The notes beneath the pieces are model-generated. The model saw only the letters and a program-made list of their open reading frames with translations, was not told where the DNA came from and did not search any database. A stretch of 40,234 nt of DNA, from contig NZ_JAGSXH010000053.1 of the NCBI RefSeq assembly GCF_018283645.1, forward strand, positions 1-40,234, given 5' to 3'. The translations under genes were made by a program, and so were the position numbers. How positions within the stretch are numbered: position 1 is the stretch's first letter; every line of letters starts with the position of its first letter. Shown piece by piece: positions 27,833 to 33,970 of the stretch. Source of the stretch: Actinocrinis puniceicyclus. Its GTDB lineage: Bacteria; Actinomycetota; Actinomycetes; Streptomycetales; Catenulisporaceae.

Positions 27833-28100
27833 ATGAATATTAGTCGGAACGTCGGCGCGCGCCGCGCCGCTGCCGACGCCGAGGGATGCTCGGGCGCCGA
27901 GGGCACCATCACCGCCGAGAACCTCACCAAGGTCTTCCACGTCTCGGCGCGCCGGCCCGGCCGCCTCTCCGCCATCAGGTCCCTGATTCATCCGCAGCGG
28001 GTGGCGAAGACCGCGGTGGACGGGGTCAGCTTCCGCATCCGGCCCGGGCAGCTGGTCGCCTTCCTCGGCCCGAACGGCGCGGGCAAGTCCACCACTGTCA
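27833..28100 (+). pseudogene. ABC transporter ATPase, N-terminal fragment cut at Walker A
   Basis: Residues 1-89 of an ABC-2 type drug or polysaccharide exporter ATPase: ITAENLTKVFHVSARRPGRL, then VAKTAVDGVSFRIRPGQLVAFLGPNGAGKSTT. The frame then leaves the family (VIPGPYTYSYGY) and stops at 28135. The Q-loop, signature, Walker B and H-loop are all missing, and the rest of the gene is not in the window. The start has GGGAGGG just upstream. The break at the Walker A codons coincides with the start of a serine recombinase, so integration of a mobile element is the likely cause. Confidence 0.85.
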
Positions 28101-28124
28101 TACCTGGTCCGTACACTTATTCGT
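28088..28124. other. Probable attachment-site junction of a serine-recombinase element
   Basis: Chromosomal coding sequence ends within the codons for G-K-S-T-T of the ABC Walker A motif. About 25 bp of lower-GC sequence (CATACCTGGTCCGTACAC and onward) separates it from the recombinase ATG at 28125. Integrase genes normally start or end next to their attachment site. The exact crossover dinucleotide cannot be fixed without the empty site. Confidence 0.5.
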
Positions 28125-28475
28125 ATGGGTACTGATACGGTAAACGAGCTGGACAGGGCGCAGATTCAGCATCTCGCGCGGGTCGCCGGAATCACCGGGC
28201 CGAAGCAGGCGCGGCGCGATCCGGCATCCTGGGAGGGGGAAGGCGCGGCCATCTACTGCCGCATCTCCAAGACCCACGACGAGGACCAAACCGGGGTGGA
28301 GAGGCAGGAGCGGATCTGCCGGGATGTGGCCGAGCGGCTACGCCTCCAGGTCGCTTCCGGGAACGCCTATATCGACAACAACCGGTCGGCGTGGCAGCGC
28401 AACCGCAAGCGTCCGGGGTGGGACCGGTTGCTGGCCGCGATCGAGTCGGGGCAGGCCGCGATCCTGACCCTGTAG
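28125..28475 (+). pseudogene. Large serine recombinase, N-terminal catalytic fragment
   Basis: 116 residues. The resolvase catalytic domain starts at AAIYCRISKTHDEDQTGVERQ with the nucleophile serine in CRIS, and continues through NNRSAWQRNRKRPGWDRLLAAI. It ends at AILTL-stop just where the family continues with a hydrophobic strand and the R-x-x-R active-site arginines. A functional enzyme would be about 450-600 residues. A C-terminal piece typical of the same family lies about 4.1 kb downstream in the same orientation (about 32584-32895). I read this as one split gene with its middle lost. Confidence 0.8.
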
Positions 28476-28797: not shown

Positions 28798-28912
28798 CCG
28801 TACCTCTCATCGCGATCCCGACCCTGTAACCGATGCCTACCAGCCCCAATCATCAGCCTCTTGACACGCTATCCGGGGCCTGGTTTCCGCAATATATCTT
28901 CACTGGCTCAAG

Positions 28913-28937
28913 GGCGGCGGCGCTTCGCGCCGCCGCC
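28913..28937. repeat. Perfect 11-bp GC hairpin with 3-nt loop
   Basis: GGCGGCGGCGC, loop TTC, then GCGCCGCCGCC. It is immediately upstream of the conserved-stem hairpin pair in the non-coding part of the mobile region. Confidence 0.8.
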
Positions 28938-28967
28938 GCGCGCTGACGGGACGGCCCAGCGCCGCCC

Positions 28968-29007
28968 GCGCCTTGCGCGTGCGGCGCTGGGGCGCCGTTC
29001 GCGGCGC
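28968..29007. repeat. Conserved-stem hairpin, copy 1
   Basis: The arms GCGCCTTGCGCGTGCGGC and GCCGTTCGCGGCGC fold into paired blocks GCGCC/GGCGC, GCG/CGC and CGGC/GCCG with small internal loops. The tip is CGGCGC-TGGG-GCGCCG. The same arms recur at 29156-29192 with a different but also paired tip. An overlapping, mutually exclusive 11-bp stem (CCCAGCGCCGC at 28955 with GCGGCGCTGGG at 28981) is possible. Confidence 0.7.
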
Positions 29008-29155
29008 GCGCCGCTGTCCCGCCCCGTTGGCGCGCGCAGGCAGCTAAGCCCACCGCCCATGATCAGAAAGAAACAGCGGCATCCTACCACAACAGTGTCA
29101 GTGTATTGACGGTTGCCGGTCATCGCACGGGCACGCGGCGGGCCCGCGCGCCCTC

Positions 29156-29192
29156 GCGCCTTGCGCGTGCGGCCTTCGGCCGTTCGCGGCGC
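29156..29192. repeat. Conserved-stem hairpin, copy 2
   Basis: Same arms as the copy at 28968 (GCGCCTTGCGCGTGCGGC and CGTTCGCGGCGC identical), but the tip is CGGCC-TTC-GGCCG. Stem and internal loops are preserved and only the tip differs, again paired. Confidence 0.7.
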
Positions 29193-29274
29193 GAACGCGC
29201 GACCCCGCCACACCCGATCACATCCCGCACGATCAACCCTGATCCAGGCCGAGACGATCGCCCCGGTTCCCTAC

Positions 29275-29481
29275 TGCGTCACGCGCGACAGCCGCCGCCG
29301 TGCGAACGGACACGGCGCGCGACGCAGCAAACGACTCCCGCCCGGCGAGCGATCCGGCCAACGTTCCCGCGTGCTCACCGCGCTCTCGGCCCACGCCCTG
29401 ACCCTGGGCACCGCTCTTTCGGTCACCACCGGCTGCTGTCCCCGCCGCCCCCAACAGCACGGAGCAGCGGGGACGGCAGCC
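29275..29481. repeat. Structured non-coding element, copy A
   Basis: The outer stem TGCGTCACGCGC (29275-29286) pairs with GCGCGCGACGCA (29315-29326; one mismatch) across exactly 28 nt that hold an inner hairpin CCGT-GCGA-ACGG. A 107-nt linker follows that aligns without gaps to copy B at about 79% identity. A strong 15-bp hairpin ends it (29431-29445 with 29467-29481, one G-T pair). It lies 3' of the small gene at 29552-29941 on the minus strand. Confidence 0.7.
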
Positions 29482-29551
29482 GCGCCGACTTCGCACGGAT
29501 TGCTTCAGCCGCAGTCACCAGTGAGTGGTGTCGGCGTGATTGACGGCCTGC

Positions 29552-29941
29552 TTAGTTGATTGGCTGGTAATCGCCGATCGCGATCGACACGGTTTCGTCC
29601 GACGGGCACACCCAGACCGAGCTCTCCGCGAGCGCTGTCATCGGATGCCGATGACCAGTGATCAGACACCGTGGCCAGGTCACTACCTGCCCATCGGGCG
29701 ACCTGACGTTGTCATGAATGAGGTCCTGTACCTGATTGGCGACAACGCCGGTCTGCCAACCGGCCGCATCCCCAAGCACGGCCGCGACCAGCCCGATGCG
29801 CGCACCGTTCAGCAGGAGCCACGCGGTACGGCTCCCGGACACTCCCAGCGAAGGGTCCGCTAGACTCAGTGCCGCACTCATTCCACAGGCAGCCAGGTCT
29901 TTAGCGACCGGCCGGAACGCTTCGTCAAGCGGGTCGTCCAC
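29552..29941 (-). CDS. Small TWP/W-C motif protein, paralogue 1
   Basis: 129 residues from GTG, with GGGAGG 5-6 nt upstream, so translation is well supported. The C-terminal half carries ANQVQDLIHDNV, VTWPRC, HRHPMTALAESSVWVCP and a final IAIGDY. The paralogue at 31621-31959 keeps the same order of residues (ANQ.QD, DN, TWP, P..A, ES, W.C). This pattern is common in small uncharacterised actinomycete proteins, possibly metal-binding through Cys/His. It lies 32 bp downstream of the secreted-protein gene, probably in one operon, and upstream (minus sense) of structured element A. Function unknown. Confidence 0.65.
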   Translation of the reverse strand: MDDPLDEAFRPVAKDLAACGMSAALSLADPSLGVSGSRTAWLLLNGARIGLVAAVLGDAAGWQTGVVANQVQDLIHDNVRSPDGQVVTWPRCLITGHRHPMTALAESSVWVCPSDETVSIAIGDYQPIN

Positions 29942-29973
29942 GGCTGCCTCCCAGCGTAGTGATTTCGCGTCAG

Positions 29974-30651
29974 CTAGTTGACGTCGGGCTCATAGGTGCA
30001 GTTGACCCACGCGTATCCGCCCGAGCCCGGGTCCGCCACGCTGTTCCAGTACCAGTAGAACGATACCGATGCGCCGGGACCCATCAGATAGTCACCGCCG
30101 CCCTTGACGCTGAAGGGGTTGCCCAGGTTGGCATGGAACGTGTAGTCCCACGGTTCGACGTGGGTTGAGTACCCGTTCTGTTCGCGGTTGTCGGCCCAGG
30201 TCTGGTTGTTGAAGGCCACCACACCCAGTCCCGCATTGGCGTCGGTCAGGTAGACGCCCCACGGGATGCTGGTCCAGCTCTCCTGGAGATAGACGTCGGC
30301 AGCTGGCTCGTCATTGAAGTACCCCGTGCAGTCGCTGCCAGGATCCGGGGGCGGCACCACGTTCGGTGACACGGACCCGTTGCCCGCAGCCTTGTGGACC
30401 ACGACGCCCGAGCCCGAGCCCGATGCTCCCGCAGCCTTCAACGCGGCCCGGACCTGCTGACCCTCTGCACTGCTAAACAGACCGCCGCCGTGCGCGCCGT
30501 GAACGGCGGCGAGGTGGGCGAACACGCCGTCGACCGTCGAGCCGGTCTTGCTGACGCCGGGCGTCGGCGCAGCCTGCGCGTTCGTGCCGACAAGGACGAA
30601 CGCGCTAGCGGCGCATGCCACTGCGGCGTATATCAACCTTCTAGAGCGCAT
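29974..30651 (-). CDS. Secreted protein of unknown function
   Basis: 225 residues from ATG with GGAGG 8 nt upstream. A classical Sec signal peptide (RSRRLIYAAVACAASAFVLVG, cleavage near AQA|AP at about 28) leads to an about 80-residue Ala/Gly/Ser-rich stretch and then a compact aromatic domain (about 110-225) rich in Trp/Tyr/Asn. It contains YLQESWTSIPWGVYL, FNNQTWADN and FYWYWNS, and two cysteines (SDC...VNC) that could form one disulfide. It looks like a small beta-rich exoprotein, perhaps carbohydrate- or membrane-binding. No family is recognised. It is first in a two-gene operon with the TWP protein. Confidence 0.7.
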   Translation of the reverse strand: MRSRRLIYAAVACAASAFVLVGTNAQAAPTPGVSKTGSTVDGVFAHLAAVHGAHGGGLFSSAEGQQVRAALKAAGASGSGSGVVVHKAAGNGSVSPNVVPPPDPGSDCTGYFNDEPAADVYLQESWTSIPWGVYLTDANAGLGVVAFNNQTWADNREQNGYSTHVEPWDYTFHANLGNPFSVKGGGDYLMGPGASVSFYWYWNSVADPGSGGYAWVNCTYEPDVN

Positions 30652-30987
30652 GTCTTCTTCCTCCGTGAGATTGCGAGATTTTCAAGCATCCTGACGGCAA
30701 CCGTCCCCCACGGCAGCGTGGCATATGCACACGATGTATGCACCCGTATAATTGGAGCCTTGCTATCAGGCCACTCATTATGAGAGTACTGCTAGCCTCC
30801 GACGGTGACGATAAGCGCCGAGGCGGCTCCCATGTGACATAGGTAACGGGCATGATCGCGCCCTACATCACAGACACCTGGTGAAACCGGCCGATGGCTC
30901 ATTCGCCTTAGAAACCCGGCATGTGCCCCCGCTACCCACAGGTCAGCCACTCCAATGGCCGCCCCGAGTTCGCCAACGTTCCAGCAC
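30652..30987. other. Upstream region of the secreted-protein gene
   Basis: No gene is supported. The AT-richer part (30710-30790) should hold the minus-strand promoter. TATGCA occurs twice on the plus strand (in CATATGCACACGATGTATGCAC), 13 bp apart, resembling an operator. No confident -35/-10 pair can be assigned. Confidence 0.4.
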
Positions 30988-31183
30988 TGCGTCACGCGCG
31001 ACAGCCACCGCCGTAGGAACGGACACAGCGCGTGACGCACTCAACGACTCCCACCCCGCAACCGATCCGGCCAACGTCCCCACGTACTCACCAAGCCGTC
31101 AGCCCACGTCCCGCCGCTGCTCACCGCTCCTTCGGTCACCACCGGCCGCCGGCACCGCGGTTAAAGACGACCGCGGTGCCGGC
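30988..31183. repeat. Structured non-coding element, copy B
   Basis: The outer stem TGCGTCACGCGC (30988-30999) pairs perfectly with GCGCGTGACGCA (31028-31039) across 28 nt that contain CCGT-AGGA-ACGG. The gap-free 107-nt linker matches copy A at about 79%. The terminal hairpin is a perfect 14-bp stem, GCCGGCACCGCGGT (31148-31161) with ACCGCGGTGCCGGC (31170-31183). That hairpin sequence is unrelated to copy A's, but its position is the same. Confidence 0.75.
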
Positions 31184-31199
31184 AGCCTGGTCGGAAAAG

Positions 31200-31242
31200 C
31201 CCCGGTCGTGCCCCCTAGCGCGGAGGACAGGCACGACCGGGG
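31200..31242. repeat. Perfect 13-bp hairpin next to element B
   Basis: CCCCGGTCGTGCC (31200-31212) and GGCACGACCGGGG (31230-31242) with a 17-nt loop. It follows element B by 16 bp. It may be a terminator for the minus-strand gene at 31621-31959 or part of the structured element. Confidence 0.75.
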
Positions 31243-31620
31243 CACGCAGCGAGGCGAGCATCAGAACGGCCACCATGCACCAGCGACAGGGGGACGCTCC
31301 ACAGCCCCGCACAGCAGCGATCCAGACCCCCACGGACGGGACCACCACCGGTCATGATCGGAGCGCCCCCGGCCGCCGTACTCCAGGCGACGGCCAGGGG
31401 CACCCACACGGGCATCCGGGCATCCGGGCATCCGGGCATCGGGGAGACGTGCCCGGACGCCCACCTACGGGCCACGCGGCGCAGGCCCCGTCATCGGCTC
31501 CAGGATGGAAATCTCATGGACCTTCGATCCCGGCTCAGGGTGGACCTCCCTGCGGAGTAGCCCCGCGCCGGGTGACGTTGACGCCGCGCGCCCAGTCTGC
31601 GGCGCGGTCCGCTCGTGTTC
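31243..31620. other. Gene-free stretch with an 8-bp tandem repeat
   Basis: No supported gene. It contains four copies of GGGCATCC (31410-31441, last copy ending in G). Otherwise I see nothing in it. Confidence 0.5.
31410..31441. repeat. GGGCATCC tandem repeat, four copies
   Basis: Four consecutive 8-bp units; the last differs by one base. It is non-coding, in the mobile region. Confidence 0.9.
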
Positions 31621-31959
31621 CTACTCAGCCGAGTCCGGCGCATTGGCCGCCAGCGCGCCCGCGAGCTGCCCGACCGCGCACCACGGCTTGCCGTCCAGGC
31701 ACCAGCAGGCGACCCCGGACTCAGCGGAGGCGAACAACGGACGGCCGTCCACTTCGGGCCAGGTACGGCCGATGTTGTCAATCACGTCGTCTTGCAACTG
31801 GTTCGCGATCGAGGCGACCAGCGGCTCATAGGGTGCCGCCGCCGTGAACTGCATCCCGTGCGCGGTGATCGTCTCGTCCGCGACGCTCGGCAGGTCAACG
31901 GGCAGGCCGGAGAAGTCCGCTTCAATACGGCTAAGGACCGCGCTCACGCGAGCTTGCAT
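31621..31959 (-). CDS. Small TWP/W-C motif protein, paralogue 2 (probably 5'-truncated)
   Basis: 112 residues from ATG (QARVSAVLSRIEADFSGLP). The C-terminal half shows ANQLQDDVIDNIGRTWPEVDG, then PLFASAESGVACWC and AVGQL, paralleling the protein at 29552-29941. There are about 50 residues before ANQ, against about 70 in the paralogue. The group II intron's 3' end lies only about 6 bp upstream, so the original start and ribosome site are probably lost and the gene may be silent. Function unknown; the Cys/Trp arrangement hints at metal binding. Confidence 0.5.
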   Translation of the reverse strand: MQARVSAVLSRIEADFSGLPVDLPSVADETITAHGMQFTAAAPYEPLVASIANQLQDDVIDNIGRTWPEVDGRPLFASAESGVACWCLDGKPWCAVGQLAGALAANAPDSAE

Positions 31960-32005
31960 TGGAAGGTCGGGTCGCCCCGGGGAATCTCAGCCCGGGGCTC
32001 CCACG

Positions 32006-32039
32006 GAACCGTACGTAACAGTCTCCCGTTATACGGCTC
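32006..32039 (-). ncRNA. Group II intron domain V
   Basis: 34 nt. GAGCCGTA pairs with TACGGTTC (one G-U), a two-nucleotide bulge region follows, and the tip stem AACGG/CTGTT closes a GAGA tetraloop. The catalytic AGC is intact. The RT reading frame stops inside it (32029-32031). Confidence 0.85.
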
Positions 32040-32590
32040 TTGTCGTCCTGGTCACCGCCCCGGTCGGGGGCACCCAGGTCCAGTGAGCGAAGTACCGAGG
32101 CCGGAGCTTATAGCCGTCCGCCGTGCGGCGCGCGGCCTGCTTCCAGCCGAGCCGGTACTTCTTTCCGATCCACCGCGTCAGCTTGAAGTTGATGCGGCCG
32201 AGCAGGGGATACAGCGCCGAGCGGTAGAACCGGCCGTAGTGAGCCAGCCAGCCCCGGACCACCGGATTGATCATCCGGGCCAGGTCGGCGGTCTCACTGC
32301 CGGAGCGCCGTTGCAGGTTCCACGCCCGCACGGTCGCGCTCATGCGCTTGAGGGCAGCTTTGCTGACCGCCGGCAAGAACGCGGTGAACACCACCCCGTA
32401 CTTGTTCTTGGCCGACCGTGGGCGGAACGTGAACCCCAGGAACGTGAACTCGATGTGCGGGAACCCGCCACGCCGGTTGCTGTCCTTGCAGTAGACGATC
32501 CTCGTCTTGTCCGGATGCAGCTCCAGACCGACCCCGGTCATCCTGGACCGCAGCGCGGCCAGAACCTGCTCTGCTTCCGCCCGCGTGCCG
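32029..32590 (-). pseudogene. Group II intron reverse transcriptase, C-terminal part (thumb and maturase)
   Basis: About 187 residues: EAEQVLAALRSRMTGVGLELHPDKTR, then FTFLGFTFRPRSAKNKYG and the maturase X domain (INPVVRGWLAHYGRFYRSALYPLLG; FKLTRWIGKKYRLGWKQA; FAHW). It lacks the palm with the YADD motif. The frame upstream of about 32590 is antisense to the recombinase fragment and is not RT. The two RT parts together are missing about 130 residues. Confidence 0.85.
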
Positions 32591-32895
32591 CCGCCCTCGG
32601 CCTGGCGCCCTCCACGCTGCACCGCTGGCTCACCGACGGGTTCATCCCCGGCCAGCAGACCACCCCCGGCTCGCCCTGGCGCATCCGGCTGAGCGAGCAA
32701 CTGCGCGGCCTGTTCGTCGACGACGCCCCGACCGGATGGCTGGCCATGCTCGAGGCCACCATGGCCTACGGCGTCTCCCGCCAGACCCTCATGCAGCGTG
32801 TCAAGCGCGGCGAGCTCAAAGCAGTCCACGTACGCACCGGACGCAGGAAAGGCCTGCGTATCGAGCCGCCAGCCACCCAAACCGGGCTCTTCTAA
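32584..32895 (+). pseudogene. C-terminal HTH fragment of a serine recombinase
   Basis: About 103 residues: RAAALGLAPSTLHRWLTDGF, TPGSPWRIRLSEQLRGLFV, APTGWLAMLEATMAYGVSRQTLMQRVKRGEL, then GRRKGLRIEPP and GLF-stop. I recognise this as the tail of actinobacterial large serine recombinases (two helix-turn-helix-like segments and an RKGLRI end). It has no start and is embedded between the halves of the intron RT. It is in the same orientation as the N-terminal fragment at 28125 and is probably the other end of that gene. Confidence 0.65.
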
Positions 32896-32904
32896 AACCG
32901 ACAA

Positions 32905-33375
32905 TCAGGATATGGAGCAGTGTGACGATGCATCCAAGAACGCCCGGATGTCAAGATCGATCACCCAGTCGCTGCGCCAGCACCGCACCCGGCAGGTGGC
33001 CACCGCGTCCAGGGCCGATCTGCCCGGCCGATACCCGTACGAGTCCCGATGGAACACGGGTTCCACCCGGACCGAGAGATGCTCGGCCACCACCGTCTGC
33101 GCGACCCTGTCACCGACAGTGGGCACACCCAGGATCCTGGTGCCGCCCGCCGACTTCGGGATCGCGACCGCCTTCACATCCGGCGGGAAGTAGGTGCCCG
33201 AGCTCATCCGGTTCCAGACCCTGTACAGATTGTCTTCCAGGTCCTTCTCGAACTCGCCGATCGACACCTCGTCCACACCGGGCGCGCCCTTGTTGCCGCG
33301 CACCTTCTCCCACGCCGCCCAGACCTCCTGCTTGGAGATCTGGAACGGCTTGGCCGGTGCTTTCAGCCCATCCAT
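32905..33375 (-). pseudogene. Group II intron reverse transcriptase, N-terminal part
   Basis: 156 codons from ATG with GGGAGGAG four nt upstream. RT0-RT3 region: VWAAWEKVRGNKGAPGVDEVSI, LYRVWNRMSSGTYFPPDVKAVAIPK, GTRILGVPTVGDRVAQTVVAE, DSYGYRPGRSALDAV and VIDLDIRAF. It diverges just after DLDIRAF (the first catalytic-Asp strand) and stops. The remainder resumes at 32590, after the inserted fragment. Confidence 0.88.
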
Positions 33376-33970
33376 ACCGCTCCTCCCGGAGAGCTTCCGG
33401 TTGACTCAACGAATCAGGCCACGAACGACCCGGCCCCTTCGCTCCACCCCCGTTACAGGGGCTTCACCACTACTACGAGCCGGTCCGCCGACGCGCCGCG
33501 CGACGGTACTCTGACGCCCGGCCGGGGCCCGGCCCCGGGTCTCGCGGGCTCTCCCTCTCACCCCCGGCCGCTGAACCGGGGGCAGTGTCGCGACACGCCT
33601 TCTCCTGTTCCGCACGGACGCCGCAGACCGGGCTCGCGCCTCCTGTACGCCGGACACCGCCTGGCCAGAAAGACGGCCACCCGCCAGGCCCATCCCGGGA
33701 CGGCATTGAAACCCCGGTTTCGATGTCATCTGACTAGTTACGACGCTTGATCAGAGGTTCGCTTCCGCTCGCCTTCCCGATCCCTGCCTGACGCATGACC
33801 TGCGCCTTTTCCCCGACCGTTCGCCACGACAGTCTTCAGCTAACGCAGTGCGGGGCGGCTTGGAGCCTCCCACCGCCGGGCGGCTCCGAGGGGCCACAAA
33901 ACCCTCATCATCCGTGCAGCACCGATCCGGTACTGGCTACTGCATAACCACTCCTTCACGTTCAGGACAC
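33376..33970 (-). ncRNA. Group II intron 5' ribozyme domains (I to IV)
   Basis: This 595-nt stretch between the intron 5' end and the RT start has no gene. It contains the expected RNA: GTGTC start, long GC-rich domain I helices and the domain III motif GTAGTGGTGAAGC...GGAGCGAAGGGGC just before the RT. Confidence 0.75.

Follow-up and report, generated by a model that had tools for sequence, protein, structure and literature searches.

A structured repeat of Actinocrinis puniceicyclus that looks like a palindromic intergenic repeat rather than a conserved regulatory RNA

The stretch of Actinocrinis puniceicyclus DNA analysed here (40,234 nt, called the window) contains two copies, A and B, of a structured element. 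A first-pass annotation had described them as gap-free and non-coding, each beside a small gene, and had proposed a regulatory RNA. This raises the question whether the element is a conserved RNA tied to these genes or a repeat of another kind. A full copy, read along the coding strand of the gene that precedes it, has the order H1 hairpin, M1 core, linker, M2 hairpin and M3/H3 hairpins. In the window, the two copies are composed as follows.

29431-29481, minus strand: copy A, strong hairpin H1, about 70 nt 3′ of the stop codon of the 129-aa gene; arms paired and aligned with those of B and of the copy on contig C82
29405-29430, minus strand: copy A, M1 core, GGTGGTGACCG-N3-G-N-GCGGTGNSCA, from a pattern search of the genome
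29327-29404, minus strand: copy A, linker, from the gap-free alignment with B
29275-29326, minus strand: copy A, M2, a 12-bp outer stem plus the inner CCGT-4-ACGG hairpin
29179-29274, minus strand: continuation of copy A, M3 and the start of the GC-rich hairpin H3, common to contig C108 and not to B
31144-31187, minus strand: copy B, H1, a fully paired hairpin of 18 bp
31118-31143, minus strand: copy B, M1 core, from the pattern search
31040-31117, minus strand: copy B, linker, from the gap-free alignment with A
30988-31039, minus strand: copy B, M2 hairpin

The alignment of A (29273-29445) with B (30986-31158) extends over 173 nt without gaps and contains 31 differences (82% identity). In a BLAST search within the organism's own genome this match has an E-value of about 1e-43, so the repeat is well past chance and the gap-free two-copy description is confirmed. 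The 107-nt linker with about 22 differences was recovered as well, 21 of the 31 differences being located within 29329-29435. The shared outer stem, 12 bp in both copies, and the inner hairpin CCGT-N4-ACGG are present as described and were also found in a third copy on contig C108. Folding of A and B yields structures more stable than those of nearly all shuffled sequences (z -2.4 to -4.0). A synonymous-substitution pattern, which would have spoken for a protein-coding region, was looked for on both strands. The best frame contains 9 synonymous and 18 nonsynonymous changes, no frame shows a synonymous excess, the substitutions have no clear codon-phase bias, and at least one stop interrupts every frame. 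A coding origin of A and B was therefore rejected, and the claim that the element is non-coding holds.

The terminal hairpins had been reported to differ in sequence between the two copies. Instead, the 18-nt arms of H1 in A and B align without gaps on the minus strand. Among the 18 pairs, four double changes stay paired (T-A/G-C, C-G/A-T, T-G/G-C, C-G/T-A), one single-sided change is still paired, and one mismatch occurs, in A only. When the substitutions of the 3′ arm were scattered at random as a null model, this compensation was reached in 0.03% of the trials (p 0.0003). Once the C82 copy was added, 4 pairs were changed on both sides; 18 of 500 shuffles attained this number, and slid controls gave 0-1. 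Because compensatory pair changes are rarely reached in these nulls, H1 looks, as far as the sequences tell, like a single hairpin kept by compensation. Template switching at the DNA level can be an alternative source of compensatory changes in a palindrome. In the copy on contig C88, H1 is poorly paired.

In M2, pairing is 100% in the three copies A, B and C108, and no double changes occur among them; the covariation that the first-pass annotation had suggested scoring is thus present in H1 and absent from M2. The stem and inner hairpin had also been called nearly invariant. Their pairing is indeed kept, but between A and B they are not significantly less diverged than the linker, with Fisher p values of 0.14 when the whole hairpin module is counted and 0.08 when the stem alone is. 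One G-U/A-U change retains pairing on the minus strand, where the plus strand would have an A-C mismatch in A and C108. Folding of the minus strand is favoured over that of the plus strand by 5-6 kcal/mol for M2 in A and C108 and for H1 in A, and the two strands are about equal for M2 in B. This strand preference, together with four exact M1 cores in the genome, favours the proposal that the M1 and M2 hairpins are the functional fold of a minus-strand cis-acting regulatory RNA or small RNA.

Query searches of the genome (430 contigs) located three further partial copies, on contigs C108, C82 and C88, making five copies or partial copies in all. M2 and the linker occur in a third place, C108:5771-5910, so that M2 is present three times. 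H1 and M1 recur together at C82:8383-8486 and C88:80710-80816. Searched with up to 2 mismatches allowed, the M1 core was found at exactly four genome sites, each with 0 mismatches (control 0). The C108 copy retains M2 but lacks both H1 and the M1 core. The segments shared between copies are different ones: 29273-29445 for A and B, 29386-29482 for A and C82, and 29179-29391 for A and C108 (C108:5780-5992, 86% identity). Since the pairwise homologies stop at different points, the family is modular, and on the basis of these alignments the A/B repeat is one module of a longer mosaic. Two additional modules of the window have second copies on other contigs.

28811-29064, minus strand: module Y, nested hairpins rich in GC; present a second time at C88:82480-82732 (82%)
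31273-31595, minus strand: module X, flanking the 112-aa gene on its 3′ side; found again at C108:5222-5524 and, in part, on C210

The gene in front of module X is not the same in the window and on C108, and in both places the module lies just past the stop codon. At 31409-31440, inside module X, a tandem 8-nt unit (CGGGCATC) is present in more repeats than in C108.

Outside the genome, the distribution was examined with a covariance model of a 139-nt core built from A, B and C108. It recovered the three copies, all in their own genome, and none elsewhere when 392 genomes from the order and 396 from the phylum were searched, with one genome representing this genus. The absence of further homologues, named beforehand as an outcome that would speak against the element, therefore applies outside the genome; within it, the third M2 copy keeps its stems. 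BLAST searches of phages and of 72,556 plasmid records gave no match, and the exact M2 pattern was not found in GTDB contigs. In the window, an Rfam 15 scan reported only tRNAs and parts of a group II intron and no family for the element, and a literature search for repeats in Catenulispora (guessed to be the sister genus) returned nothing relevant. Several candidate matches were rejected as chance: BLAST matches in relatives are short GC-rich stretches inside long open frames, at least 118 M1 pattern matches in GTDB contigs come from unrelated phyla with similarity limited to about 25-60 nt, and the single match in a viral contig (L062) is without the stem.

All five copies are positioned 3′ of a gene and on its coding strand, a placement expected by chance in about 1 of 32 cases, and the location of A and B behind minus-strand genes is as first described. 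The genes around A and B are the following.

29552-29941, minus strand: 129-aa protein gene, 5′ neighbour of A; homologues with 41-44% identity in the sister genus
29974-30651, minus strand: gene for a 225-aa secreted protein between B and A; signal peptide assigned by eye, no family match
31621-31959, minus strand: gene for a 112-aa protein, next to module X and B on their 5′ side; 61% paralogue on C210

The 129-aa and 112-aa genes had been regarded as paralogous, which is only marginally supported: the similarity of the two proteins is confined to one stretch of 43 aa, in which 17 residues are identical and 10 positions are gaps (pairwise E 2e-4), and in genome searches at E 0.001 neither retrieves the other. 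Going by this short alignment, paralogy is possible. A link of the element to genes of this TWP/W.C type was not upheld, as three of the five copies lie beside unrelated genes. The C108 copy stands between a radical-SAM cyclophane-type RiPP operon and the C-terminal part of a RepSA gene (PF20199, E 2.6e-22), the C82 copy is next to an HTH regulator with DUF952, and the C88 copy is next to a GntR/UTRA regulator. Furthermore, the element is absent 3′ of the 129-aa homologues in ten sister-genus genomes, and other DNA is found there. The element had been argued to be under selection on structure for being more alike than the neighbouring proteins; this inference does not hold, since the occurrence of the element does not depend on which gene lies next to it. 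As a separate observation, the radical-SAM maturase on C108 (locus L044 2327-3520) matches AmcB (NF041718, E 5e-159), and the region is possibly a cyclophane-peptide cluster beside the RepSA gene fragment.

With no homologue beyond the genome, no covariation in M2, unrelated neighbours and no Rfam match, the regulatory RNA proposal appears distinctly improbable despite the strand preference and the M1 cores. The element is structured, non-coding and 3′ of minus-strand genes, as the first-pass annotation stated, but a conserved regulatory RNA belonging to TWP/W.C genes is not borne out. The A/B repeat looks like a bacterial palindromic intergenic repeat rather than a conserved regulatory RNA.

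A and B are located in an island-like stretch beside a truncated serine recombinase of the resolvase family (28125-28475). A second family of 3′ hairpins, about 250 nt long and 86-90% identical, was found at C108:183-432, C88:77932-78181, C210:39084-39316 and C72:3981-4222; each copy contains a near-palindrome of about 136 nt, lies 3′ of an HTH (XRE-type) regulator gene, and is absent from 59 other genomes (60 searched). Like the A/B repeat, this family is a large palindrome repeated 3′ of genes and genome-private among the 60 genomes, but it differs in sequence and is larger, and it is the non-coding strand that folds more stably. Since this second, independent family follows HTH genes, repeated 3′ hairpins are a habit of these islands. 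Two very long hairpins of unrelated sequence and similar nested design are present on C82 (locus L045 291-392 and 2930-3067).

Two further observations concern the window. A gene for an ABC-transporter ATPase appears to be interrupted exactly at the Walker A motif, with the N-half at 27833-28102 and the C-half on C88 (locus L046 7233-7872, C88 ~77232-77871), beside another island segment. Its junctions read AAGTCCACC-AC-TGTCATACC and GGCTTGACA-AC-CATCAAG, with the AC flanked by a near-palindrome. By inspection, the split would fit a serine-integrase crossover with an AC core. A group II intron (31966-33906, minus strand) has Rfam parts at both ends and a broken reverse-transcriptase frame, and its 3′ end directly precedes the start of the 112-aa gene.

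Dispersed, palindromic, non-coding DNA with unrelated neighbours, in regions rich in mobile elements, could also be a non-autonomous mobile element (MITE or REP-like), a palindrome copied by a transposase in trans. However, the copies share different sub-segments and number only about five, and neither fixed ends nor terminal inverted repeats nor target duplications were observed (duplications checked by eye), so that we regard this explanation as unlikely. The RepSA fragment abutting the C108 copy, the GntR/UTRA regulator preceding the C88 copy and the truncated recombinase near A and B would suit a site for replication or transfer (single-strand origin, clt) that integrated pSAM2-like elements left behind. 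On the other hand, A and B, at a distance of 1.7 kb from each other, are not accompanied by rep or tra genes, none of these are found near C82 with its DUF952 context, and the plasmid records gave no match; such an origin seems very unlikely. An attC-like recombination site marking interchangeable gene cassettes would explain orphan genes with structured repeats behind them: orphan genes are separated by shared palindromic 3′ DNA, and module X directly follows the stop codon of two different genes. Only five copies exist, though, no crossover core is common to all, and the regions read contain no integron-type integrase, which makes this the least probable of these possibilities, one to which we give hardly any weight. 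It is also very improbable that H1, the M1 core and M2 are one unit, either a transcribed lineage-specific structured RNA or an island recombination site, that enables the exchange of gene tails.

The explanation that we consider somewhat probable is that of low-copy, genome-private, mosaic palindromic intergenic repeats of island regions, with H1 at the transcript end and the rest recombined. H1 would either terminate transcription of the preceding gene, as a U-less (I-shaped) terminator, or shield the end of its transcript from 3′ exonucleases, and the remaining modules would be carried along and reshuffled by recombination between islands. Because the modules would spread with gene tails by recombination, the copies would be related as gene-tail DNA and not as one regulon. 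Judged from its position and structure, the most likely role of H1 is to mark the 3′ end of the transcript that precedes it, or to protect that end. A terminator scan finds no canonical intrinsic terminator at H1, which has no U tract and is followed by GGTGGTGACC. Such structured transcript ends without a U tract are common in Streptomyces (PMC8269248). H1 resembles them in being a stable, GC-rich hairpin past the stop codon; it differs in that the conserved M1 core, linker and M2 downstream of it are unneeded for termination, and the ends described here are predicted. The absence of a U tract also counts against the 3′-end model, as do the C108 copy without H1 and an extra hairpin between the gene and H1 in C88 and in B. 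In B this hairpin carries a T4 tail.

31199-31243, minus strand: perfect hairpin of 14 bp with TTTT behind it, immediately upstream of B; a candidate for the intrinsic terminator of the 112-aa gene

With another hairpin in between, the element may not be the transcript end in B and C88.

Among known repeats, the REP/BIME sequences of enterobacteria are likewise extragenic palindromes in 3′ untranslated regions. REP units are short and occur in hundreds, whereas the repeat described here is about 200 nt long and low in copy number. With M2 present three times in the genome and M1 four times, it does not match the high copy number and 20-40 nt palindrome that define REP sequences. More than 650 REP units are mentioned in one study (PMC4681348). 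The pneumococcal BOX, RUP and SPRITE repeats (PMC3049150) are also short, intergenic, highly paired and modular (boxA/B/C), and SPRITE is terminator-like. They are, however, numerous and occur across strains, and IS elements have been proposed to mobilise them, whereas the repeat described here has about five copies, all in one genome, and lacks a known mobiliser.

Our analysis indicates that a comparison of two copies can mimic a conserved RNA when the repeat is genome-private. The compensatory changes in H1, together with repeated 3′ hairpins behind unrelated island genes, suggest that strong palindromes are retained at gene ends in GC-rich actinobacterial islands.
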